Shown one piece after another: positions 8,520-61,347 of a stretch of DNA of 64,000 nt. Within the stretch, counting starts at the first letter, position 1, and the number at the start of each line of letters is the position of its first letter. Where the stretch lies: NCBI GenBank assembly GCA_026929865.2, contig CM049404.1, forward strand, positions 28,173,001-28,237,000. Direction: 5' to 3'. The notes under the pieces are model-generated. The model saw only the letters and a list, made by a program, of their open reading frames with translations. It had not been told where the DNA came from and did not search any database. The position numbers and the translations under genes are program-made. Origin of the DNA: Hyperoplus lanceolatus (Eukaryota; Chordata; Actinopteri; Uranoscopiformes; Ammodytidae).

Positions 8520-10314
8520 TCAAACCAACTTCTCCATCCTCATCACGTTGATTCTGGCCAGCTTGGAGAACCAGCGGTTGGCGTGCGTGTTCTTGTGGGA
8601 CCCGGTTTGAACGAAGCCTGACTTTTGGCACAGGGACACGGCTGCTGTCTGCGGCGAGGTGATGTCCACCACCAGACGCGAGTGACCTTGCTCTTTGCAG
8701 AACTCGAGGGCCTTCTTCGTCAGCTGCGAACCCAGTTTTTGACCACGACACTGGAACTCCACAACCACGTGGGACATCTCACCGTAACCGCCGCCGTCTC
8801 CGCCATCTTGGAAATTCTCAGAGCCTCTTTCCACGGCTCCTCCTCCGTTGCAGTCGTCAAACCTATCCCCTTCCACACTACTTCCCAATCTACCCAAAAC
8901 TGCCACCATCCCCACCACTTTGGACTGGCCTCCGACGTCCGCCTCCGCCACCCAAAAGCCATTCTCCGGGTTGTCCACGTAGTTTGCGTTGATGTCGGCC
9001 ATGTCCGAGCTCAACCTCTTCTCCAGGTAGCCCTCGTAGATTTCGTGGCAGCAGTAGTATATGAGGCCGGCCCACGCGCTGCCAAACAGTAACGCTTGGA
9101 AGTAGGAGCTGCCGCCTAGCACGTAGCCGGCCATGGATATGCTGAGGGCGATGCCGATGTGGTCCGGGTGGCTCAGGGCTTTGAAGAAAGCCGGGTAAAC
9201 GTGTTCGTGTATCCCGTCGCGAAGCAGCGACATCACCGCTAGCTCGTCAGAGGGACTGTACTCCCGGATGGAGAACTGGACTGTAGGTAAGAGAGAGAGA
9301 TTTTAAAATTTGTATTACATTTATTTAATTTTCTTATAAATGTGTTACTTGTAATAATTCAAGTGTGATTTGGTATTATTTGGGACATTTTTAATATCTG
9401 TAGCGTTTTGAATTGAATTGAACCGTAGGTGAGAGAGAGAGAGAGGGAGGGAGAGAGAGAGGGAGAGGGGGAGAGAGAGAGCGAATAATAGCTTGGTGAG
9501 ACTAATCTGCCTGTTGCTGCAATAAAAAATTCCTGCAGGATTTCACAATGGGCTCAGTGCGCTCACGTAACTTGAATCAATACAGCTCATACAGAATCTT
9601 ATCCTTTTCATTTCTAGTTTAAAGGTGGAGTCAGCAAATTTGGAGAAAAGTTTTGTTTTCACTATCACTTTTTTGTCAAAACCAATATATATCACCTCAC
9701 TATATCTGCTACTTTTATGTACTGTTGTAGGCTGTTTTTTTTTAACACAGCCTAGGATCTGTAAACTGCCATGTTGCTAGATATGTTGGGCCTCCTTTGT
9801 TTACATACCGGTTTTAAGTGCACACAGTACGTACAAGTAGCAGAGCTTGAGAAGACATTTCCTGATTTAGAAAAAAAGTGATTTTAACAACAAGCGTTCC
9901 TCATAATCAGAGTGGCTTACTCCACCTTTAACTCTTATTTCACTAGAATATAAAAACCTGCCATTTGAAAAGCCTGGTTGTAAGTCACTAATACAATTAT
10001 TATGGTATTGTTTTTCTTCAAGAGTAAGAATCACACTGAGGTGAAATACAATCAGGTCTCATGTGCCAATGATGAAAAATCGAAGAATAGTGATGACCAT
10101 ATAAGGCAACAAACAAATGGTCTTTAGTTTCACTCAAAAGTGGCATGCATTATTTCGTAGCTATGTTAGTAGTGCCATTCATTTCATTCATCTAGCGTTC
10201 TCATTAGTGCACTTATTCATAACCACTTCGACTACTTGAAAATATAAATATATATATATATATAAAAGATTAACGTAATCAGATCGCAAACTTACAGTTA
10301 TTTTTCTGGGCCAT
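8520..10314 (-). CDS. NAT8/camello-family N-acetyltransferase, two exons
   Basis: The exons, complement, are 10314-10296 and 9280-8520, giving 259 residues. Exon 1 (MAQKNN) ends at a GTAAG donor. Exon 2 follows a CTACAG acceptor, and the joined frame reads FQFSIREYSPSDE, the usual start of NAT8-type proteins. Residues 50-95 hold a hydrophobic hairpin (IGIALSISMAGYVLGG, ALLFGSAWAGLIYYCC), as in the ER-membrane members, then SSDMADINANYV and FWVAEADVGG, which lead into the GNAT fold (KVVGMVAVLG, SHVVVEFQCRGQKLGSQL, RLVVDITSPQ, LCQKSGF). Two oddities are visible. A Gly/Asp-rich insert (VEGDRFDDCNGGG...) sits between the second and third GNAT strands. The acetyl-CoA loop reads RGQKLG where NAT8 relatives have RGQGIA, putting Lys in place of a conserved Gly. 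The family acetylates lysines or small amines at the ER; the substrate here is unknown. An in-frame extension upstream to 10473 exists, but the first ATG giving a family-like N-terminus was preferred. Confidence 0.85.
9281..10295. other. intron of the acetyltransferase gene
   Basis: It is bounded by GTAAG (10295-10291) and CTACAG (9286-9281) on the minus strand. It holds a GA-rich tract (9429-9482), a MITE family A copy and an (AT)n tract near 10249-10264. Confidence 0.8.
9619..9931. mobile_element. MITE family A, copy 2
   Basis: The left end is TTAAAGGTGGAGTCAGCAAA and the right end is GGCTTACTCCACCTTTAA, inverted. The copy lies inside the acetyltransferase intron. Confidence 0.85.
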
Positions 10315-11586: not shown

Positions 11587-13139
11587 AGAGTTCTGCTGCC
11601 AAAAATCTGGGTGTTATCTTTGATTCTCACCTTTCATTTGATAAACACATTAAAGAAACCACTAAAACAGCCTTTTTTCACCTTAGAAATATAGCTAAAA
11701 TTAAATCTAGTCTGTCCATGTCTGATGCAGAAATCTTAATACACGCATTTGTGTCCTCTAGACTGGATTACTGTAATGTATTATTTTCTGGGTTTCCTAA
11801 GGCAGCTACTAAAGGCTTACAAAAGGTTCAGAATTCTGCAGCCAGGATTTTAACGAAAACCAGAAAATTTGACCATATCACACCAATATTGGCCTCCCTT
11901 CACTGGCTCCCGGTGCATGTCAGATCGGACTTTAAAGTGCTGCTTCTGACTTTCAAAGCTGTAAATGGGCTTGGACCTTCATACTTGTCTTGTCTCATAG
12001 CAACCTATGTCCCTCCCAGGGCACATCGCTCTAGTAATACAGGGCTCCTGTGTGTCCCCAGAGTTAAAAAAAACTGCGGGACGCAGGGCCTTCTCCTATC
12101 GGACTCCTTTTTTATGGAACAATCTCCCAGCAGCCATAAGACAATCTAACTCTGTTGAGGAGTTTAAATCCAAACTTAAAACATACCTATACAGGCAAAC
12201 TTTTAAATAAATTATAGTCCTTTTCTGCAGAGGGAGGGTCTCAGTCTAGGTATTGTTTACACCGCTGGTGTTGGCGGCGGCCGTGCCTGTGGGGCCTCTG
12301 TGTGTTTTTCGGTGCTGGCGCCGGCTGTCCGTGGCCGGTTGTCTCGCGGCCTGCTCCGCGCTTGGGGTGCCGGGGGCCTTGTCTCCGCCTCTGTGGCCGT
12401 GCCGGCTCCTGTATGACTGCTCTCCGTGCCCTCTCAAGGGGTGGCCTGCAGCTTGGGTTCGGGGGTGTTTTTAACTTAGATCTAGGGGTGTTTTTAACTT
12501 AGACCTAGCGGTGTTTTTAACTTAGACCTAGGGGTGTTTTTAACTTAGATCGAGGGGAAGCCAGGGGTGGAAAGACTCAGTTTGGGTTGGTGGTGACCTG
12601 GCTTCCCCATAGGGTGAGGGTGGTGTGACAGGGATTGCTTGGCTGGCGTGGTCCCATTGGTGGTGGGTCTCCCCTTCGGCGTGGGGGGACGGGTGGGCTC
12701 CACCGCGGGGTGAGGCGCCGTGCTGCGGGCCCTATTTTTTATTTTTTCTTATCTCCCATACTTCCGAGCCATAGCTCCTCCCTCCGTCCTCTCTTCGCAT
12801 GCAGGTCTTGTGTGCTGATTGGACACCCTGGATCCTGCTCCCTCCTACTGCGGGTCCCGTTCGTCATAAACAGTTGACCGTCTATTCGCTAGGTTATATC
12901 ATAAAGAGTGATGGTGACTCGAAGGATGAGTGACGGTGTGGCCCTTTGTCTGGCAGCTTCAGAAGTCTATGGACATCTTCCTACATTGAAATCTACCTAC
13001 ATTCTCACTATGGACATTGTTATCTTTTATGGATTGCTTCACTGTGTATGTTTTTATTGTGTTTGATTGTAAAGCCCACTGAGGCAAATTGCTATTTGTG
13101 ATATTGGGCTATATAAATAAATTTGATTTGATTTGATTT
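11587..13139 (+). mobile_element. 5'-truncated L2-type non-LTR retrotransposon with 3' tail
   Basis: The frame reads AAKNLGVIFDSHLSFDKHIK, FVSSRLDYCNVLFSGFP, QKVQNSAARILTKTRKFDHI and LASLHWLPVHVRSDFK. After a frameshift near 12040-12070 it continues RRAFSYRTPFLWNNLP and FKSKLKTYLYR. This is the C-terminal part of the reverse-transcriptase ORF of L2/Rex1-like fish LINEs. A GC-rich 3'UTR follows, then the typical ending GATATTGGGCTATATAAATA with a TTTGA repeat tail (about 13118-13139). The endonuclease and catalytic RT core are missing, so the copy is dead. Confidence 0.88.
12464..12555. repeat. four 23-bp tandem repeats in the LINE 3'UTR
   Basis: The units start at 12464, 12487, 12510 and 12533, each GGTGTTTTTAACTTAGAYC plus TAGS/GAGG, with one or two changes per unit. 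Each carries a TTTTTAACTTAGA core. Confidence 0.9.
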
Positions 13140-48212: not shown

Positions 48213-51200
48213 ATGGGAAACGAGCACTCCAAGACCAAATCGTCCAACACGGTAAAATTCATCACACAACAAACTTGTAATACTTACGTTCATAATCTGT
48301 CACCTTGCTGCCTTTGAATTAGTTCTAAGATGCAAATGATGAAATATTAGCGGCTACTTGGACCAAAAGTTTTAGCTCCCAAGTTTTCTTTGCTTTTGTT
48401 TTACAATAGCTGGATTGTTTGCAGTCAGAACCAGTGTTTGTGTTGAAATGTAACTCACTGTAGAGCATGTATTGTGAAAGAACATGGACTAACATTTCTT
48501 TATTATGCTTTATAGAGTAACAAAAGTATAGAGCAAAATGGAAAAATTACATCGAATGGATTGGAGATTGAAGGTGAGTCAGATTTTATTCAGATGTTTA
48601 TTTCCTTTCCTTCTTTATTTTTCCTTTTTTCCTGTTTAACAGGCAAGTGATACATGTAATTACTTAACTGTAAGACAACACAGTTAGTATCCTGCTATAT
48701 ATAAATTTAGACACAAATGAATGCACACGTGATTTTCAAAAATCAAATCCTTTTCTCTAAATTTTGAGGATCTGAAGATGAAAAAAAAATAGATATAATA
48801 GCTTGATCTTTTTTATTCTGTTCATTCACTCTGTTTCACTGCATTGTGTATTATGGGAAAATGCTGTATTCTCCAACATCAGCTGACCTATGTTGGATTA
48901 GTCCTTTCAGCTTTTATAACGCTCTGTCAACACAGCGACTCCCAGATGGAATATGACTTGAGTCATCCAATGTAAACTATAGGCGTAGTCTACAGACACT
49001 GAGAGGGAGCAACTAGTTGGCCTAGTCATAGTGTGTTCTGTGTCCCCGCAGTTAAAACAATACTGTATAGGATTCCCACTAAAACCTGAGTTTGTATAAG
49101 GGCAAATGTTGACACTGGAGAGGAAGATAATGTCACTTTCTCGCACCGACCAGCCCATGTTTACTTCATTAATTTGGCATTGTACAATAAGATAGCATGC
49201 TTGGGTTTAATTATGCAACAGTTTAACATCCAAATTATCATTGGCATATTGTAGTAGAGACGCCTGAGAACTTCTTTGGGAGATCATAAGATAAAAAAAA
49301 TTATTGCAACATGGACTTTGCATGAGATAAATCAGATGTTATTAAACATAAATAACATACATGTGTAATTAATTTGACCTAAAGATGACAGAATTGTATT
49401 ATAAAAAGTCAGTTGGTGATAGCAGGTTCCTATCTTGTTTTCACATTTTGATAACATATTCTTCTTCTTGATTTTTTTTTGCAGCTAATGGTGAAGCTAT
49501 AGTCCAGGAAAATGGCTACACCTCTTTAAACTTTGTCACAGAATCAACTGAGAATGACTATGTGGCAGAGGAAACAGATACTCCCGCTGCGGTTATTTCT
49601 GAAATTGTGGAGACCATTGTCCAGAAGGAACCGGAAAGGCAAAGTAAAGAGGAAAAAGTTAGTGGGTTCGGCAAAATGTTCAAAAAGAAAACAGAACCTC
49701 CAGCGGATGTCAAGGTTGTTCAGGAAAAAGAGATATCAAATGACGATCAAACGGATGCAAGTCTTCCTGCCACCGATCCTCAGCCGGTAATTGCATTTTT
49801 ACTTTTATTTCAAGGACTGGTCTGATGATATTTTCTATTTGTTTATTGTCAGGAAATCTCTTTAACCAGAACTACTCAGTAAATAACCAAATGTGTGCCA
49901 AGCCCCCACTGTAATTAAAATAGTCTCTGATTTTTTATTTTTTTGAGTAGCATTTGTTAAAAACTGCAGTAGCCGGCTCTTTAAAGAAAATGATTTAGCC
50001 TTTTTTTCTAAATGTAACTATATATGTCAATATATTTGATTTTTTTTTACATTTTACATCAACTACTACAAACAGCAGGATGGGGAAATCAAAAAGTATT
50101 GAGAGAAGACTCATTCATTGTTTGTTTAGGTCTTCATGGGATTTGAATACCGAAAAAATCCTGTGAACTGCCAGTTTCATCGTTTACTGTTTTTGCTCTC
50201 ATCTCTAACAAAATCCTGCCTGACAAATTGCCTGAAATCAACTAGATTACATTTCTTTCGTAATTAAACTTTTAACAGTACATAGACAAATCAAAAAATA
50301 TTACATTGTTGAGAGACCGAAGAGGAGAAAGGACATTTGTAGTGCACTGCAACACATCAGCGCTGCAATAATTACAATTTTCAGTTGTTGTTAGTTAAAA
50401 AACTTTGGTCGCAAGTTTCATCAATGCATTTTAAGCTTTGGAGGTTTTGTATTGGAAAGCATTATATTTAAATGTATAATATTTTGTCAAACTCCTGGAA
50501 ACATGGAAGGAGAAAGACACAATTACACTATGTATAAAAGGGTTCACAGTCTCAACAACAATTCAAACTTTTAAACTTTTTTCAAGTAAGCATTTACTGT
50601 AGGACTGTTGTACTACATGGCATTACAATATAGCGGTCATTTTATTATACTGAAAGGTCTGTCACTGTGTGATCAAGCACATGGTTATCAAATGTTCCCC
50701 AGTGTCAAAAAACAACAGTATTTTATCTAAACATGAATGTTGATTTTCATGATAAAGGAGTCGAGCTCAACTGGAGAAGGAGTGGCCACCATGATCATCG
50801 CTGAGCCAAGAGAAGACTTTGAATATATTTGCCCTCAAGATGAATCATCAACACAAATGGACAATATAACTGCAGCGGATATTTTTGCACACTTTGCTGT
50901 CTGCACAGCCACTATAACTGAGGGCCAAGTGGACGTTACGGAGACGGCAGCGATAGAAGAAGATTCACTGACTGATTTCACTGTTGTCATTGCTGAGGAG
51001 GTTGTTGAACAGTCTGCAATTGAGGAAACCATAAACAACAAGATACCTGAGATCGTCGTTGAAGAAGTGGTCATTGAGAATGATTCATATGAGAATATAG
51101 TGTTCACAGCAGAGAGGGTGGAAGTTGCTGAATCTGTTCAGGAAGTTGGAATAATTGCGGAGGAAAATAACATTGAAGAATCTGAGCCACAGGAGATCTC

Positions 51201-54200
51201 GTACAGCCTTCCCAAAATGGTGGCAGTCTGCACAACCACTATAACTGAGGGCCCAGTGGACGTTACGGAGACGGCACCGATCGAAGAAGATTCACTGACT
51301 GATCCCACTTTTGTCATTGCTGAGGAGGTTGTTGAACAGTCTGCAATTGAGGAAACCATAAACAACAAGATACCTGAGATCATCGTTGAAGTCATGATTG
51401 AGAATGATTCGAACGAGAATATGGTGTTCACAGAACAAGTTGCTGAATCTGTTCAGGAAGTTGGAATAATTGCGGAGCAAAATAACATTGAAGAATCTGA
51501 GCCACAGGAGATCTCGTCCACCCTTCCCAAAGTGGTGGCAGATACGCTTGAGGCAGTTTTGGCTGCTGAATCCGTTGACTTTGCCGATGTAAACATGTCA
51601 ATGTCCTGTGTAAACAAAGTAATAACAGAAGACAATGACGAAGGAGCTGAAAACATATCGGCTGATGTAGTGCTGATTGAAACCACTGAACCTGAGTCTA
51701 ATGCTCTCACGCCTGAGACCGTGGAAGCAATTGACGTTTTTTCCCTAGACGATGAGCAAGCTGCTACTTTGATGGAAACAATCTCAGAGGGTGTCCCTGA
51801 GGAGCCAAATGGTGCACCAACAATCCAAGAAATTACTGTGGAAGAACTTCCTACCCTATTGGTGACAGACATTCAAGTTAACGAGGAATCTGCCCCTGAA
51901 GAGGTTACCGCTGCTGTTGATGATGCTGTTGCAATTGAGGATGCAGCCGGAATAAGTGAACAGAAACTCACCATTATGACTGACGTTGGGTCTTCAGAGA
52001 AGTGGGAAGAGTTCAACGCTATGGAGATTCTTTACAATCAGCTAATCACTATTGAGGAACTTCCTGAAGATTCTCCTGATGATGAAGTTATGCCTGAGCA
52101 TATTACGGACGTTATGACTACAGATGACAAAGCTGCGGTTTGTGAAGACGTGTTAGCTGACGTGGGACCAGAAACAGTTGGCATCACCATGGGAGAAGAG
52201 GTTATTGGGGAAACCGTTTCCATTCCCCTTTCAGAAGCAACCGAAGAAACCCTTACCATTCCAGAGGAGTCAGTAAAAGCTACAGAACACATTTTTGAGG
52301 AACCTTCAGATGTGCCACAGATGGACACCACAGAAGACCCTGAGCCATGCGTGGAAGATGTTAAAGACGTTTCTGTACCCCTTTCTGAAGAAAACCTTCC
52401 CATTCAAGAGGAGCTGTCGAAAGCTCAGAAAATCCCAGTAAAGAAGCCAGCAGTGGATTGTGGCATGAACCTGGAGGAAGAGGTAACCGTTGAAACTAGT
52501 ACCATATCCCTTTCTGAAGAAATTGAAGAAAGCCTTACCATTCCACAGAAGCTGCCGAAAGCTACAGAAAACATAGTTGAGGAACCTGACGTGGATTGTG
52601 AAGTTGCCCTGGAAGAAAGGGTCATTATTGAAACTGTAACTGTAACCCTTTCTGAAGGAATTGAAGAAAGCGTAACCATTCTAGAAGAGTCAGCAAAAGC
52701 TACTGAAAACATTGCAGATGAACCTGCAGATGTGCCAACAATGGACACCACAGTAGATCCTGAGCCATGTGTGGAAGATATTGAAACTATTACTGTAACC
52801 CTATCTAAAGAAATTAAAGAAAGCCTTACCATTCCAGAGGACCAGCCCAAAGCAACCAAAACCATCGTGGAGGAACCAGCACTGGATTGTGGCATGACCA
52901 TGGAAGAAGAGGTAATTGTAGAAACCCGTTCTGTTCCCCTTCCTGAAGAAATTGAAGAAAGCCTTACCATGCAAGAGCCATCGAATGCTGCCGAAAACAT
53001 GGTTGAGGACCTTGCACATATGCCACCAATGGATGTCACAGAAGAGCCTGAGTCATGCGTGGAATATGCTCATATGGAGAAGATTGTGAGGCTTCTTGAG
53101 CAACAATCGCAAACTGATTCGACATTGGACTCAAAGTTCAGAAATTACTGAAGCTTCCCCTGCCAGAAATACAGACATAGAAGCTTTACTCTATAAGTTG
53201 CAGTCAGTCTGTACATCAGTTGTGCAAGAATCAGTGTACAAACTTGGAGGTTTAGAGATGTCTTCACAGGGATATAGAATTGTTCTTACCATCAAGGTGG
53301 AAATAAAAAAAAGAACTGCAGTAAATGATGTTGCAATTGTCCATAGATGTTTTTCTTTAGTAGGGATCTACCGCTTTAATATCATATGTTTAATGGTAGG
53401 CAATTGCTACTGGATTGTAGAATGATCTGTGTTTTATAATGATGCAAAGTGCTTCTGTTTGTAAATATATCATCAACACAAAGTTTACATTGTAAAGACT
53501 TGACATTTTTTTCTTTGATAAAACCAAAAATGAAAACATTGAATTTTGTGGCTTGACTTATTCATTCATGATATTATTCTTGAAGTTGAATTATTTTGGT
53601 CAGTGTTAAGTGGAAAACAAAAAAACTACTTTAAATATTTTCTTGTTTAATTTTTGTCAATTTATTGAACATTGAATAATACACTAAATAAAACTTATAA
53701 TAGAACAAAAACAAATGTGATACTCAGCAACACATAAGTGAGAAATGAGCAACTAAAACAACATTGTTACTGTTCTAAAGGGGTAAGAAGAACTTTTAAA
53801 CTTGTCTGGTCCTCCTACCCCCCTTTTGTTTTGATAAATTTACATTCAATTCAATTTACAGACATTAGTGTCCATGATAATTGCATTTTTTTTAAGTCCA
53901 CACTTAATAAAGAATTAATTGTTGAGAAATTACTCTAAAATCAGGGTTATTCAGTGATATATTTTTTAATTACACACCATGAGGACAGAGCAATGTATTT
54001 GTGTTTCCTGACATTTCTCAGGGCATTACTGTCACACATTGTTGAATATCAATGAGTGAGGGGTGGGACACACACATTAATAAAAGAGTGATTGTTGACA
54101 AGGCCCCGAGTAGGCAGAGGCATGGTTGGAATTGCACTCCCATCTCAATGCTGCGATTAAGACACTCACTGCTTGCACATCAGCTCTAACGCTGCTGTAA

Positions 54201-57200
54201 CGTAAATCTAAAAGGTAAATTTTTCTGTGATGGTGAATAGGAGACAGCTAACCTAAAGCAAGAATCTGAATCATCACCGGAGCCAGAAAGTCTGACAGTG
54301 TCAGAGGAAGAAAAAGCTTCTGAAACTGACGACGGAAGCAGTCAACCTTTGGAAAAGCAAGAGGAGAGTACGCCAGAAGAGAATCCAATAATGAACTTCT
54401 TCAAAACACTTGTAAGTAGCACACTTTGAGAAAATAAGAATGTACTTACTAACTGCTTCTTTTTTGTAATATACGACTGCTTCTGGGAAATAAATATAAC
54501 AATTATTGTAATCAAAAGTGGGAGAAGGGAAAACACCTTTGTTAAGTCCAACTATTACTGAAGGCAAACAGCTGCTCAGAAAAAAAGTAATAAAGTTGTC
54601 AGAATTTGTGTTTTCCAAGATATAGGGATATAGGGTAATTTTCCCGAGAAAAGGAAGAACTGTGATAGTAAAATCCTCAGTGTATTTGGTCGTGTTAATA
54701 TTGGATTGTTGTGGGTGTGATTATTCTGTGTGAAAGTATGTGTACTTGGAGTTTTATGGCAGTTAAGGAATCCATAACTGAATCTGCCAAGATGACAGTG
54801 CCTGATGGAAAATCTACAACAAGCAGCTATTGTATTTCCTCTTCATCTTGCCGTCTTTGGGATCCATGCCGTTTTAAAGAGTTACCATTGCCCTAGCCCC
54901 ATGCTAATCAAGTCTTTGAACATGCGGGAATGTGGTGGCCTATTGTTCAGCCCATAGTGTGAGCTCACAAGGGAGGCCTGTGCGGTTGGAAGTTGAGATT
55001 TGTGAAGATAGAGCGAGGGCAGGCCTACGCCATCTCCGGAGCACAATGGCCGTCACAATGACAGCGCATGTACTGTATGTGCCTTGTCAGGGACCTCAGT
55101 GTGCACCCTGTGTGCCTCTGGGAGCTTATCATAAAGGACTATGTCTGCATTCAAGAAAGGCTTCTGTTTTATGGTTCTTGTTACATCAACTATACAGTAC
55201 AAGCTGAAGGTTTTACATTGCAGCTTCACCGCCAGCTATATTGGTGAGGTGGTAGGATGGCCTAGAGGGGCCGACCAGTAACTATGAGGTCCCTGTTTCG
55301 ATCCCCCACCAGTTACGAGAGTGTTACTTGTAAACTAATGGTGGCTGGTATTATAAAGTGCCCCCCATCTCTACCATTGTGTCTTTGAGCAAGTCACTTA
55401 ACCCCAAACTGCTCCAGGGGTGCTGTACTATGGCTGACCTTGCGGGAGGACCCCCTCTGGAGAGAGAATATGCTAGAAGACAAATTTCGATGTAGCCTTG
55501 TGTAAATTGACCAATGAAGCAACATAACTTATATTAAATTACAAAATGTGGGCACATTTTAATATTATTTAATATGTACTGTATTGTGACATAAATAGTT
55601 ACTTTTCCTTCCCTTTTTGCACAGGTGGCCCCTAAAACACCAAAAAAGGAAACAGCAGCTCCTGATGCAGCGAAGGATCAGGTGAACAGATGTTAATGAA
55701 GCACATTACGTATAAAACATATTAAATGAGTAGCAGACAGTACCACTATGGGTTTATTTAGAATAGTTTTTATATCATATCTTACTTTGGTTACTTACAA
55801 AGCTTTGTCAGTGAACTCAGTAATGTCAGAGGTTGATAATTTGATATAATGAACAGATTGGGAAAGTTGGCTGTTTTTGCATATTGCTAACTGGCATCCA
55901 TTTCTGTTGCTGCTTGAATTCAAAATGTGCCTTATTCCATAAATAGTTGAATTTGGTCCTCAATATGCAATAGAATATCCAAGGTCCACATGTATACAAG
56001 CTTTTTGCAGATATTCTTTTGCTTTCTGTTCATATCTGCTCTAACCGCTTCCTTTTTTGTTGCCAAATAGTCCCCGAAGGAGAGCCTACCATCTGAAACC
56101 ACGACTGTGAGCACATTGACCTTTAAGTGTTTTAATTTGTGTAACAAATCTTGCAGTTCAACACAAAGGATATATTCACGGGACACAGTTGGGTTCAGTT
56201 AATTTCCAGAGATGCCATTTGCTAATACATACACATTCAATTTCCAACAGTTTGTGTTGCATGAAAGCTTAGTTGCTAAAATGAATTAATTACTGCTTTG
56301 CATTTTATAATAATAATACAATATTTTATCTGTGGAAGTCTTTAAATATTTACAAATAAATAAAAGACAATAAACACGTGATAAAAAGTCACTAAGATGA
56401 TAAATTACATTATATTATGACAATAAATTACCTATCTTAAAATTAATGTGCCGTTCCTATGGTTTTCAATAACAAACCATTATTTTAACTCCTGCTCTCT
56501 GTGGAATAGGTTGCACAAGTATCTGAACCACCCGCAGCACCAAAGGGAATGAATATCCCACCACCACCTCCTCCAGAACCACCCAAACTGGAAGTCAAAG
56601 GAGATCCAGCCGCCAAACCTGCAAAAGCCACAGCAAAAGAGGAACCAAAAGCTGCAGCAAAGGAACCGGAGCCCTCAAAAGGAAAATCAGTCAAAGTTGG
56701 TTTTGGCAAATTCTTTCGTACCAAGGTAAATAAACAGCACGCTGGAGATTGCAAAAGATGATGATCATATTTAAAGCCCCTGTAAACCCAAAATCTTCTG
56801 AAAAGAATTAGGCATATTTTTCAATCCAGATTAAAGATACACATTCAAGTTTGACAAATTTAACAGAAATTGGGTTTAGATGAGACGGGCTACGCTCTGG
56901 ATTTGATTACACAATAAGTACTGTAATTTGAACAAATCACGGCAGTTATCATAATGATCTGTAAAAACAATAACTGTTGCCATGGAGATCGTTTGATACA
57001 ATGATAGGTTTTATAATATTTATGAAGAATTACTTTCTGAGACTCCCAACTTCGATATCATATACTGATTTTTACTGTTTTAGACAAGGTTTCCAGGGGC
57101 TTTAAGAATTATTATTTACGTAGATTGCATTCAGTGAGGTCATGTTTTAAAGTGTTACCACTTATAACATAACATAGTGTGAAACATACTGTACTGTATG

Positions 57201-60200
57201 TGAATTTGAGATACTGCTAGGTGCCAAGTCATCCAAAGGCAAGGGCGCTTCAGCAAGTGGAGCCAAAGCCCAGGCCAAGACTTCAGCTGTGGTATAGTAG
57301 ATTATCGCCTTCTCAAATTGACTACGGCTCATGTCATGTTGGCTACTTACTAACAAGAGCTGATTTGTCCAGAGGTGGCAGAAAATAAACAATTTGCTGT
57401 TTTCAAATTGGAGCCTGCAGCAATTGTGTTTTGAAAAAAAAAAAAGGAGAAACTTTTTGTGGTGCTTTCTCAAAAATGTGACTCCTCAGTAAAGCTGCAG
57501 TAATAAGGTGACTTTAGTCGAATGTTTGTCCTTGAAAAAGCCTAATATATTGTTTCTAGCACATTCCCATGATACATTCTATTCCGAAAATTTTAATTGG
57601 ATTATGATATTATGAAATATGACATTTTGGGAAATACACTTTTTTCGCTTACTGGCCTAGAATTAGATTCAAGTACATCAATACCACTCTCATGTCTGTG
57701 CTGCCCACTAAATTTGAAGCTGGAACACTATCATAGCTTAGAATAAAGACTGGAAACAGGACAAAACAGCTAGCCTGGCTCTGTCATAAATCATTTATGT
57801 ACAGTAGCCTATATAATATAGCACATTTAAAGCTAATTAGTAAAACAGTTTTTTTTTAGCAGCATAGCCTATAATATACACTGTAGAGGTGATGGTGCTG
57901 TAGGTATATTTGTGAACTTTGGAGAGACTCAGGCTAGCAATTTCCTCTTGCTTCCAGACTCTACTCTATGCTAAACTAAGCTAAGCTAAACTTAACTACA
58001 CTAAGCTAATCACCATGGCTTTTGATCCATGAGTGGCATTGATCATGAGAATATTTACTAAAATGTCAAAGTATTCTTTTGACCAGTTCATATGAATCAG
58101 CATTCATTGCCATGCTAACATGCTAAGCACTAAACCCTTTTCTCTGTTTGAGGGTAGGCTTTTTCCTTTCAAATGGTTTGTTTTACTAACAATAAGAATT
58201 AACTCACCGTTCTGAAGACAATCAAGGATCTACCAAAGCCAGAAATAGAAGTAGAGGTACGAACAGTTGTAGAAGTAGGCTAGCTAGGCTATATAGTCTT
58301 CCAGCAAACCTTCCACTAGCATTGTGGGCATTACTTTGAATAATCTTTTAAGAATTACTCCTAGGAAAACGCTGTATACAGTGATTTATAGCATTTTAAG
58401 ATAGGCCTATCCATCTGAATTTACATCTTGTATGAATAATAAAAAAGGAGTTTTGCTCTGCAGGAGACACCAGTGGAGGTGCCACCACCAGAGCCAGTGG
58501 TGGCAGCAGTTGAGGTAAATCAAGACAGTTCTTTGGGGTTTTTGTTTGGTGGAGGAATCTTCTGATTTATCCTATGAATTATTGCTTTTAAAAAAAAACA
58601 TTTGAATTAATGGGAGAAACTGATTGGTACTTCAATGCAGGCAGGGGAAGAGGTACCACAGCCAGTGGTAGAAGTCCAGGTAAATCAAATAGAGTTTTTG
58701 GCTGTTTTTTCATTTGGTGAAATAATCTTCTGGAAGAGTCCCCCCATGATTTATTGCATTTTAATTTTTACAATGGTTTATTTAATTTGAATGGATTGGA
58801 ATGGAGAAATATTTTTTTCAAAATCAATTTAAAAGTATAATTTTCCATCAATGCAGGCAGTGGAAGAGGTACCGCAGCCAGAAGTAGAAATTGAGGTAAA
58901 ATGACGGTGTCAGACATTTTGGGGAAATGTGCTTATTTGTGCCATTGTTGAGAAAATGTATATTGTTCTCACATATGTTCGTCAAGTTGGCTGATGCAAA
59001 CAGCCAGAATCAGTTAGCTTAGCATAGCATAAAGCTTTAAAAATAATAATAATAGGGAAACCGCTAGTCGTGCTCTATCTGAGGCTAACATAATCCGCTA
59101 GCCTTTCAATCTTCTCATCTCTTGGCAAGACAGCAAATAGGCATATTTCCCAATGTGTCAAACTATTCCTCCAAACGAGGACACTCGGAATCTTCGGTGG
59201 AAACTTAAAGCTATTTCCTCTTCTATTCTATTCTTTCTTTTTCTAAAATAATATTCTTTACTCTTGAGCATGCGGTTATGGGTTTCTTAATTCTTACAGG
59301 GTCCAGTTTCTGACTCCTTTTCTGCACTGATGCTGGATTTTCCCCCTCTTTTAGGCCTATCGTCTTTCACTCCACAGGTGGCGGGTTCTGCCCTCACTAT
59401 GCCAGCTATAATAATGCTATTTTTGTTTGTTTTAAACACCTCATGATATGTATTTTCTTCTCTGTCGTTTCGATAACAGAAGGTGGATCCCTCGAAGGCC
59501 AGCACTCTGGAGGCCACTGCAAAGCCAGAACAGCCACCGCCGGTTCAGGAAGAAAAGAAACCCGCCCCTAAATCAGCTTTCCTTTCTCTCTTCAAGCCTA
59601 AAGTAAGGACCATTTTATTTGTGGCCTTTATGGATTTTTTTTTAAATATCTGAAAATGAGTATGAATTGTGATGCATTTACTAAACAGAAAAGTAACAGA
59701 TTAATTTGAATTTGAGGTACTGTTAGACCACATGACCACAAAAGTCCAGGCAGCCTCCACAAGTGGAGTTCGGCTCCTCAGGAGAACAGCTGGCGTGGTA
59801 AATAGTAAACACTGTACAGTCAAATTAACTCTGATAGAGATGCATTATTAACCAGAGTGATGTCACTGATTACATCTGGTATTGACACCTGCTCTAAAAA
59901 CATCTGCTTCTTCTATACTTCTGCTTTTGGAAGAAATATGTTTCTCCATGTATAATTATACTTGGAAATCATAACACCAGACATCAGTGCTTGTGTGATC
60001 ATCCCTCATAATGTTTCAGTCACTAAGACATGCTGTAACCTAACAGCTGGTGTGTACTTAAAGCTTTAGTGCGTAACTTCTGTCACCCTAATGAGTACAA
60101 TCTACATCAGGTAAGCCTTCTGTGATTGCACATGGATTTTATTCTTTATGCTGTAGGTGGTCCAAGTTTTTTCTTTAACAACTAAAGTATTTCGTGGCCA

Positions 60201-61347
60201 CTTCTTGGGATTTTTCTGAGCTCCTGCGTCAGTGTCGGAGGCGACACCAGTTCGTAAGCGCTGCCATACTGAGAAATACAGAGAGAGTTTTGTGTGGTGC
60301 TTAATCAACTTTGTCAATTCGCTTTGCAATGGCTATAATGAATGTAACCAAAATTCATTCATATGAAAAAGTTACGCACTATAGCATTAATGCTAAATGG
60401 ATTACTTGCTTTGTTGTCTTCTAGGATACTATTTATTTCAATTAGTTCTAATATTGATGTTGATCAATGTGCATCGTCCCTTATTAATAAAGTAATAAAT
60501 AAATAATATTTAAAAAATTCAATTCAAATGCTTTGGGACTGCGATGATTCTGTATTTTTTTTAAATGTATTTTTCATATGCACCATAACTCTTTGAGGCT
60601 GATCCCAAGAAGGCGAGCCCGGCCCCAGCAGCAGCAGCCGAGGCCCCAGCAGCTAAAGCCAAAGAGGAACCTAAAGCAGCGGCCAAGTCGACAGAGGCGC
60701 CTGGAGGTTCAGCTTCAGTGGCCCCCCCGGCCGGAGACGATGCCGCCAATGTGCCCAAGAAACTGGAGAAGAGAAACTCCATTGGGCTGTTCTTTAAATT
60801 CAAGGTAAGGACAATGTTTATGCAGGTTAAGGTTAAGATATGTTGAGTTTGTTATGTGTCAATTAACACACGTAGATAAACACAAGGTTACACACAAACA
60901 AGGTTATTGAAATGTGTGTTCTCATTTCCCTACACTACACATGCAATTCCTCAGAGGGGGTCATCGTTTAGGATGCTTGACTATAATTGAGTGTTTAGCT
61001 TCAACTCCACTAGATGGCAGCATTGACTAGGTGTATGGGCCCTACACTTCACTGTGATTGTTATGCACAGTTTGGTTGTATTCACTTACGGCTCATAAGT
61101 CTGACTTGTATCACAGGGACACATATTCCATTAAGTGCAAATAATGCAGTTTAATGAAAACATGCAAATAAAAATTGGGGAGGTACTTTATGGGGGAAAA
61201 AAAGACCTCCGTGAGTTAATATTTGTTATGAATGACACAATTCTTTCTCCCCCTTCTGTTTTATTTCAGAGTGGGAAACGTAACTCTACAGATGCGGGGG
61301 TCCAGACAGACCAAGCCACTGCTTCAGCAGCCGAGAAGGCCAAATGA
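48213..61347 (+). CDS. bcas1: breast carcinoma amplified sequence 1 homologue, multi-exon
   Basis: Exons read: 48213-48251, 48516-48573, 49485-49786, 54241-54411, 55625-55681, 56071-56106, 56510-56725, 57211-57291, 58227-58256, 58464-58514, 58641-58679, 58857-58895, 59480-59602, 59717-59797, 60598-60804, 61270-61347. Except for the phase-1 junction after exon 2, all are phase 0. The sum is about 535 residues (human 584). It begins MGNEHSKTKSSNT, a myristoylation-type start like human MGNQMS. It contains NPIMNFFKTL followed by VAPKTPKKE (human NNSIMSFFKTLVSP), repeated basic/aromatic modules GFGKMFKKK, FGKFFRTK, FLSLFKPK and IGLFFKFK, and the conserved C-terminus TDAGVQTDQ (human LDAQVQTDP). 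BCAS1 is known from myelinating oligodendrocytes and binds dynein light chains. The protein is low-complexity and Lys/Ala/Pro/Glu-rich. The small exons at 57211, 58227 and 59717 are the least certain. A large alternative exon (50758-53151) also joins in phase. Confidence 0.88.
50758..53151 (+). CDS. bcas1: giant acidic exon inside bcas1, possible alternative terminal exon
   Basis: One frame stays open for 2,394 bases (about 797 codons) after the first usable AG acceptor (AAAG at 50757; a TGA at 50734-50736 blocks reading further upstream). Exon 3 ends at 49786 in phase 0 and this frame starts in phase 0, so it joins cleanly to the MGNEHSK N-terminus. The product is strongly acidic, Glu/Val/Thr-rich and without Cys-rich or enzymatic motifs. 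Residues 47-260 are two tandem units of about 105-110 residues. Residues 480-780 hold about five shorter units built on LSEEIEESLTIP, KATENIVEEP and MDTTEDPEPCVED. Near the end is QQSQTD, a dynein-light-chain-type motif. No strong donor is seen. ATT|GTGAGG at 53085/53086 is weak but phase 0, so use as a 776-codon internal exon is possible. I do not recognise the protein family. An AKAP- or gravin-like scaffold role is inference. Confidence 0.7.
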   Translation, partial: ESSSTGEGVATMIIAEPREDFEYICPQDESSTQMDNITAADIFAHFAVCTATITEGQVDVTETAAIEEDSLTDFTVVIAEEVVEQSAIEETINNKIPEIVVEEVVIENDSYENIVFTAERVEVAESVQEVGIIAEENNIEESEPQEISYSLPKMVAVCTTTITEGPVDVTETAPIEEDSLTDPTFVIAEEVVEQSAIEETINNKIPEIIVEVMIENDSNENMVFTEQVAESVQEVGIIAEQNNIEESEPQEISSTLPKVVADTLEAVLAAESVDFADVNMSMSCVNKVITEDNDEGAENISADVVLIETTEPESNALTPETVEAIDVFSLDDEQAATLMETISEGVPEEPNGAPTIQEITVEELPTLLVTDIQVNEESAPEEVTAAVDDAVAIEDAAGISEQKLTIMTDVGSSEKWEEFNAMEILYNQLITIEELPEDSPDDEVMPEHITDVMTTDDKAAVCEDVLADVGPETVGITMGEEVIGETVSIPLSEATEETLTIPEESVKATEHIFEEPSDVPQMDTTEDPEPCVEDVKDVSVPLSEENLPIQEELSKAQKIPVKKPAVDCGMNLEEEVTVETSTISLSEEIEESLTIPQKLPKATENIVEEPDVDCEVALEERVIIETVTVTLSEGIEESVTILEESAKATENIADEPADVPTMDTTVDPEPCVEDIETITVTLSKEIKESLTIPEDQPKATKTIVEEPALDCGMTMEEEVIVETRSVPLPEEIEESLTMQEPSNAAENMVEDLAHMPPMDVTEEPESCVEYAHMEKIVRLLEQQSQTDSTLDSKFRNY
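50893..51540 (+). repeat. two tandem coding repeats of about 320-330 bp
   Basis: The first unit runs from about 50893 to 51222 (VCTATITEGQVDVTETA to SLPKMVA). The second runs from about 51229 to 51540 (VCTTTITEGPVDVTETA to TLPKVVA). The units are very similar at DNA and protein level, including AIEETINNKIPEI and SVQEVGIIAE. This means a recent internal duplication with the frame kept. Confidence 0.92.
52170..53070 (+). repeat. degenerate coding repeats of about 180-300 bp
   Basis: About five units each contain a Glu-Glu-Val-Ile/Thr-Val-Glu-Thr strand, LSEEIEESLTIP, KATENIVEEP and sometimes MDTTEDPEPCVED. Spacing varies because the CVED block is present in some units only. Confidence 0.8.
53136..53425 (+). 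pseudogene. out-of-frame coding tail after the giant exon
   Basis: Directly across the stop at 53149-53151, the next frame (+1) reads SSEITEASPARNTDIEALLY and then KLQSVCTSVVQESVYKLGGL, and stays open to 53425. The text looks like coding sequence with the same Ser/Thr/Glu style. It contains an amphipathic helix (53177-53245) with hydrophobic residues at the spacing of PKA RII-binding helices. The switch lies in TCAAAGTTCAG (53131-53141), where a single extra A would explain it. This could be a real allele, a recent loss, an assembly error, or chance. Confidence 0.5.
53426..54240. other. bcas1 intron / 3' end of the alternative transcript
   Basis: AT-rich, with an AATAAA at about 53685-53690 (CTAAATAAAAC) that could serve a transcript ending with the giant exon. 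Nothing else was recognised. Confidence 0.45.
54412..55624. other. bcas1 intron with a SINE
   Basis: Bounded by CTT|GTAAGT and TTTTGCACAG. It carries the SINE at 55235-55505 and nothing else recognised. Confidence 0.7.
55235..55505 (+). mobile_element. tRNA-derived SINE in bcas1 intron
   Basis: An A-box-like GGTGAGGTGGTAGGATGGCC is followed by GTTTCGATCCC (B-box). The body has GAGCAAGTCACTTAACCCC and CAAACTGCTCCAGGGG, a core shared by several fish SINEs. Confidence 0.82.
56771..57105. mobile_element. 335-bp MITE in bcas1 intron
   Basis: The left end is TTTAAAGCCCCTGTAAACCC and the right end is AGGTTTCCAGGGGCTTTAA, inverted. Confidence 0.78.
57617..58140. mobile_element. repeat family C, copy 1 (TTGGGAAATACACTT type)
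   Basis: It has the fish-repeat text TTTTGGGAAATACACTTTTT, ACCACTCTCATGTCTGTGCT, AAGACTGGAAACAGG and CAGCTAGCCTGGCTCTGTC, then GCTAAGCTAA-rich sequence. The ends are not resolved. Confidence 0.7.
58227..58895 (+). repeat. bcas1: array of duplicated short phase-0 exons in bcas1
   Basis: The exons 58227-58256, 58464-58514, 58641-58679 and 58857-58895 encode variants of AVEEVPQPEVEIE (LPKPEIEVE, PVEVPPPEPVVAAVE, AGEEVPQPVVEVQ, AVEEVPQPEVEIE). The last two are both 39 bp with near-identical acceptors (TCAATGCAG) and donors (GTAAA), so they come from a recent tandem exon duplication. Splicing in or out keeps the frame. Confidence 0.82.
58905..59190. mobile_element. repeat family C, copy 2
   Basis: It has TTTTGGGGAAATGTGCTTAT, GTTAGCTTAGCATAGCATAA and the GCTAACATAATCCGCTAGC text of the same family as 57617-58140, with CAAACTATTCCTCC at its right end. 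Confidence 0.65.
59198..59479. other. bcas1 intron remainder
   Basis: Nothing was recognised except the splice acceptor CGATAACAG. Confidence 0.5.
60060..60388. mobile_element. 329-bp MITE in bcas1 intron
   Basis: The left end is AAAGCTTTAGTGCGTAACTT and the right end is AAGTTACGCACTATAGCATT, inverted. No coding content. Confidence 0.82.
60805..61269. other. last bcas1 intron
   Basis: Bounded by AAG|GTAAGG and TTATTTCAG. Nothing else was recognised. Confidence 0.75.

Follow-up and report, generated by a model that had tools for sequence, protein, structure and literature searches.

BCAS1 (also NABC1 or AIBC1) is a marker of oligodendrocytes that are beginning myelination, and its detailed function is still to be described (PMC9405932). 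The human gene has 12 exons encoding 584 amino acids, with a variant that adds exons of 5 and 45 codons, and the protein homodimerises and binds DYNLL1 (PMC9405932). In pre-oligodendrocytes, ordinary BCAS1 is associated with the plasma membrane (PMC8262677). Here we describe the bcas1 gene on the forward strand of a 64,000-nucleotide stretch of Hyperoplus lanceolatus DNA (GenBank assembly GCA_026929865.2, contig CM049404.1, positions 28,173,001 to 28,237,000; 'the window', whose own numbering is used throughout). The intron between exons 3 and 4, 4,454 nt in length, contains a stop-free frame at 50737–53151 (804 codons, or 797 from 50758) that encodes an acidic repeat protein. This long coding frame has been kept through duplications, and from 50758 it starts at an AG whose phase is the one needed after exon 3. 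We regard it as a real, unexplained coding exon with an inferred function, and most likely as an alternative 3′ end of bcas1. To our knowledge, mammalian BCAS1 has no counterpart of this exon. AKAP12 (gravin, SSeCKS) combines a myristoyl anchor with a giant acidic exon. It offers a working parallel, in which three promoters yield isoforms with distinct localization (PMC3071728). No such bcas1 exon appeared among the literature matches listed, at title and abstract level (subscription journals and annotation databases lay outside this scope), so that annotations of some fish genomes may already include it.

The frame is the longest stop-free frame of the window, the runner-up having 260 codons. 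In simulated DNA (order-2 Markov, 60 simulations of 64 kb per composition), no stop-free run exceeded 229 codons with the composition of the window, or 359 with that of the frame itself, which bears out the report, in a preliminary description of this sequence, of one frame open for nearly 800 codons. Its further claims, of orderly codon content and of opposite-strand frames that look like shadows, agree with an independent codon model, built from the 13 ordinary exons of bcas1 with other bcas1 introns as background. In this model the acidic frame alone scored positively, at +340 bits, a value raised by the Glu-rich make-up common to BCAS1 and the acidic frame; the other two sense frames scored −481 and −783, and the best 2,391-nt segment sampled every 7 nt across 14–32 kb scored −427. 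Antisense open reading frames (ORFs) over the acidic exon reach 214 codons, and look like shadows because all antisense codon scores are negative (−710, −141 and −542). As had also been claimed, the frame is kept through internal duplications: in six direct-repeat families of at least 30 nt, every start-to-start spacing (138, 291, 420, 327, 288, 315 and 324 nt) is a multiple of three. That 50758–53151 is a real coding frame is supported, and we find the evidence convincing. Its parts are as follows.

50758 to 53151, forward strand: acidic repeat coding exon, 797 codons and a stop.
50896 to 51537, forward strand: recent tandem duplication that keeps the frame, its two copies having 109 and 105 codons.
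52180 to 53067, forward strand: six older in-frame repeat units, R1 to R6 (EEEVxVETxxxxLSEEIEESLTIPE..KATENIVEEP..), with borders drawn by eye.
53095 to 53118, forward strand: LC8 (dynein light chain)-like LEQQSQTD, which scores highest of all 8-mers in the frame and is followed by 10 residues and the stop.
53687 to 53692, forward strand: AATAAA, possible poly(A) signal of a long form; others lie at 53302, 53906 and 54079.

The surrounding bcas1 exons that bear on its use are these.

48213 to 48251, forward strand: bcas1 coding exon 1, MGNEHSKTKSSNT, from its translation and GT donor.
48516 to 48573, forward strand: bcas1 exon 2, with AG/GT borders and an open frame.
49485 to 49786, forward strand: bcas1 exon 3, ending in phase 0 and containing FGKMFKKK.
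54241 to 54411, forward strand: bcas1 exon 4, phase 0, ending in IMNFFKTL and ordinarily joined to exon 3.
61270 to 61347, forward strand: ordinary last coding exon of bcas1, containing DAGVQTD, with 11 residues between this motif and the stop.

Exon 3 and the frame from 50758 agree in phase (both 0), and joining 49786 to 50758 gives 930 amino acids (isoelectric point 4.05) with a single terminal stop. The best in-frame coding start is exactly 50758 when codons of the frame itself contribute to the model, and 50755, one codon earlier, in the independent model, which places 50758 second. In the three frames, the 33 nt at 50758–50790 score 9.5, −1.6 and −9.8 bits, a level reached by none of 3,270 intronic 33-mers (taken from introns that partly trained the background) and by none of the 183 with a GC content of at least 55%. 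With the independent model the scores are 10.5, 4.6 and −6.7, and 0 of 1,703 intronic 33-mers are as high. The segment is therefore coding-like in frame, which favours read-through from an upstream exon.

These features suggest, at about even chances, that the acidic frame is an alternative 3′-terminal coding exon of bcas1 yielding a membrane-anchored acidic isoform. Exon 3 (49786) would be joined to 50758 rather than to exon 4 (54241), giving an mRNA that ends inside the intron, with its stop at 53151 and perhaps poly(A) at 53687, where AATAAA is weak as a signal (82 occurrences on the forward strand of the window). This 930-residue long form would retain the MGN N-terminus together with FGKMFKKK of exon 3, lose the four later Phe-Lys motif places, including a borderline Pfam match to myelin basic protein (MBP), and gain about 800 acidic, probably disordered residues with a net charge of −175. 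It would end in a putative LC8-type motif of its own, where ordinary BCAS1 has one, and would work as an acidic spacer or scaffold that is anchored to the membrane and paired through LC8, in opposition to the ordinary isoform with its membrane-binding motifs. The exon 1 N-terminus, MGNEHSKTKSSNT, is taken by us to be of myristoylation type. If the reading is true, the long acidic isoform with its common N-terminal anchor would provide the membrane-binding form with a testable counterpart, and the exon could be dated by its occurrence in other fish.

Relative to the ordinary BCAS1 isoforms, the long form would share the locus, exons 1–3 if so spliced, and a putative LC8-type motif near the C-terminus, and would differ in its acidic exon. 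From 50758, this encodes 797 residues with 204 Asp or Glu and 29 Lys or Arg (net charge −175, isoelectric point 4.05). It has a single F-K/R-type match, the C-terminal KFRNY, no FFK and no repeated FFK-type motifs, whereas the ordinary 471-residue protein has five Phe-Lys (F-K type) motif places. As ordinary BCAS1 is itself mildly acidic (net charge −22), the contrast between the isoforms lies in the motifs and in the size of the charge. An AlphaFold prediction for the 797 residues, from the single sequence without alignment, had a mean predicted local distance difference test score (pLDDT) of 31.9 and no residue of at least 70, low values that may fit disorder but are no test of it.

Apart from its position, the frame is newly tied to bcas1 chiefly by the LC8-like tail, although as a putative motif. 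On a scale built from 19 cellular LC8 peptides, which themselves range from 10.9 to 22.1, LEQQSQTD scores 11.6, at the low end and with its −1 residue off consensus. The ordinary fish tail TDAGVQTD, 11 residues before its stop, scores 16.8, and the human tail 14.9; the verified motif of human BCAS1 is KRMLDAQVQTD, and RSQTS of Mark3 is also listed as a verified LC8 motif (PMC3789673, Table 1). Some 8-mer reached 11.6 in 14% of 5,000 shuffles, and in 0.56% one did so among the last 31 residues, a region picked once the motif had been seen there.

Several results weigh against the joining of exon 3 to the acidic exon. On the rough matrix used for all splice sites here, the 50758 acceptor, with A at −3, has a weak score of −2.4 and ranks 57th among the 325 AG of the intron; of the 12 bcas1 acceptors scored, just one falls below it (−3.1), and exon 4 has −1.2. 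Phase-0 splicing to exon 3, as first proposed, is plausible and supported by the coding-like 50758–50790, but this acceptor and nearby signals for a separate start count against it; the alternative acceptor proposed with it, 50761, is not credible (score −10.2, rank 274 of 325). In the tail, SQTD has S at −1, outside the [T/V/I] given for that position in the LC8 consensus (PMC3078936). No homologue of the acidic frame was found in Pfam (no family up to E 5 for the 804-codon frame) or among PDB sequences. Of the pattern matches in viral contigs (4) and in prokaryote genomes (9), not one was confirmed; neither collection covers fish, and their null result says little about fish. The one PHROGs match (E 0.022) was taken as chance. 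AKAP12 domains, which Pfam includes, were likewise not detected in the frame, which had no Pfam match of any kind. An origin from other bcas1 exons was also considered and rejected, as tblastn of the frame against the window (E up to 1) matched only itself.

Among the same counter-evidence, selection between the repeat copies is weak and mixed. The ratio of nonsynonymous to synonymous change (dN/dS) is 0.86 for the recent tandem pair (105 aligned codons) and 0.35 to 0.75 for the older units (six comparisons, overlapping and not independent). Over three non-overlapping comparisons the synonymous share is 0.315 against a neutral mean of 0.257, a value reached in 4.75% of 400 neutral simulations; shares as high as those observed arose in 4% for the older two comparisons and in 52.5% for the recent pair. 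When differences were placed at random in seven overlapping repeat comparisons, the number of identical residues gave P values of 0.02 in one, 0.076 and 0.093 in two others, and 0.36–0.78 in four. A frame control on four ungapped repeat pairs gave the ORF frame the largest synonymous share only in D2; frame +1 had the largest in D1 and D3, and the ORF frame had 0/4 in D5. Since this control is not clean, the evidence for coding consists of length and codon content, not of a selection test. The unconstrained recent pair would suit a relic, that is, a formerly coding exon that is now untranscribed or decaying, but 797 codons without stop or frameshift, even after the recent duplication, make this the most improbable of the readings.

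A final group of signals on the same side, a TATA/initiator pair (50533/50565) and a perfect Kozak ATG (50791), favours a start within the intron.

50533 to 50540, forward strand: TATA element of a possible own promoter, TATAAAAG, from a pattern scan.
50563 to 50569, forward strand: initiator TCAAACT, with +1 at about 50565.
50586 to 50591, forward strand: donor-like CAA/gtaagc, a possible link from a short leader to 50758; with a score of 3.9 it ranks second among the 237 GT in 49800–54300.
50791 to 50793, forward strand: in-frame ATG with the perfect Kozak gccaccATG, 18 codons after the frame opens (50737).

The frame may instead belong to a separate unit nested in bcas1, transcribed from a TATA promoter of its own (50533), with a start at 50791 and perhaps a leader spliced from 50586 to 50758, giving a 786-residue acidic protein without the membrane anchor; we hold this to be possible, though unlikely. 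The initiator lies 32 nt on from TATAAAAG. The consensus scan returned nine TATA/initiator rows at six initiator places on the forward strand, against a simulated mean of 1.9 pairs per 64 kb on one strand (30 simulations), so that such pairs are not rare here. GCCRCCATG occurs three times in the window on both strands, against 0.73 per 64 kb, both strands, in 30 simulations; the other two are the likely start of a pfdn4-like gene and 34426 (minus strand), which opens just 45 codons. With a leader spliced from 50585 to 50758, no ATG would come between the junction and 50791; another candidate acceptor for a leader is 50703 (score 0.4). A leader would, however, have no need of the coding-like 50758–50790. 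Unspliced from 50565, it contains six ATGs before 50791, two of them in frame, and from the ATG at 50733 a frame of 23 codons overlaps the start; the LC8-like tail, moreover, points to kinship with bcas1. If the frame is a nested gene instead, it would represent a new acidic LC8-type protein within a myelin locus.

The phase fit to exon 3 and the own-start signals are both present, and the acceptor at 50758 might be common to exon 3, for an anchored long form, and to a separate leader, for a soluble one. AKAP12, with isoforms of distinct localization from three promoters, sets a precedent (PMC3071728), but the arrangement needs extra parts where a single route could explain the data, and we consider it improbable. 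Sequence alone cannot choose among isoform, nested unit and both, hence the descending weights given to them.

The absence of a strong donor from the frame, also part of the preliminary description, holds only in part. The top GT of the entire intron (53783, score 4.5) falls after the stop. Inside the frame lie two phase-0 donor candidates, GAG/gtaacc (52483; score 2.9) and GAG/gtaatt (52912; score 2.8), comparable to donors of the gene itself (2.3 for exon 3, 3.0 for exon 7). They would allow a cassette exon, spliced from exon 3 to 50758 and from 52483 or 52912 to exon 4, which would place an acidic insert in ordinary BCAS1; as the frame has a stop of its own, reached past repeat R6 and a distinct LC8-like tail, we regard this as very unlikely.

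Residues 164–201 of ordinary BCAS1 (54366–55660, the end of exon 4 and start of exon 5) resemble Pfam Myelin_MBP around IMNFFKTLVAPKTPK, a borderline match just above the cut-off (E 2.6e-4, 22.1 bits against a curated 22) that may reflect a shared membrane-binding motif. The long form would skip this stretch, and is acidic where MBP is basic. ACTAAY is a QKI site. ACTAAC at 54448–54453, 37 nt past exon 4, is the only forward-strand ACTAAY in 49.8–55.3 kb; with 74 in the window against 88.5 expected, the motif is no commoner than chance, and the site is thus a lead only. In mouse oligodendrocytes, Bcas1 splicing (exon 7) depends on QKI (PMC5548867). A doubtful extension is that bcas1 here makes two opposed myelin proteins by choice of 3′ end, possibly set by ACTAAC 54448. 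An MBP-like form with five Phe-Lys motif places would hold membranes, and an LC8-paired, anchored polyanionic brush (net charge −187) would hold them at a distance from each other, for instance in cytoplasmic channels. The Zwilling proteins, bicistronic myelin products of teleosts, were considered and showed no link; the main text on the zebrafish myelin proteome does not include bcas1 (PMC8060510).

The ordinary bcas1 model comprises 13 coding exons on the forward strand (48213–61347, 471 amino acids) with AG/GT borders, and every intron from intron 3 onward is in phase 0. A possible additional exon near 57221–57296 was left out of this model, and the gene looks complete within the window. 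Its identification leans partly on known BCAS1 sequence; other support comes from the C-terminal KRNSTDAGVQTD, compared with the human LC8-binding KRMLDAQVQTD, and from the upstream pfdn4-like gene. The name and neighbourhood of the latter are putative, and its 35-residue exon had no match in Pfam. Two 39-nt phase-0 micro-exons of bcas1, at 58641–58679 (AGEEVPQPVVEVQ) and 58857–58895 (AVEEVPQPEVEIE), are 87% alike over 53 nt including splice sites and look like tandem duplicates; a third stretch, at 58209–58261, is 60% alike to the pair.

Elsewhere in the window, a single-exon GNAT acetyltransferase frame of 260 codons (Pfam PF00583) lies at 8523–9302 on the minus strand. A 186-codon frame at 11589–12149, without a match in Pfam, presumably resembles a reverse transcriptase fragment of the long interspersed nuclear element (LINE) type.

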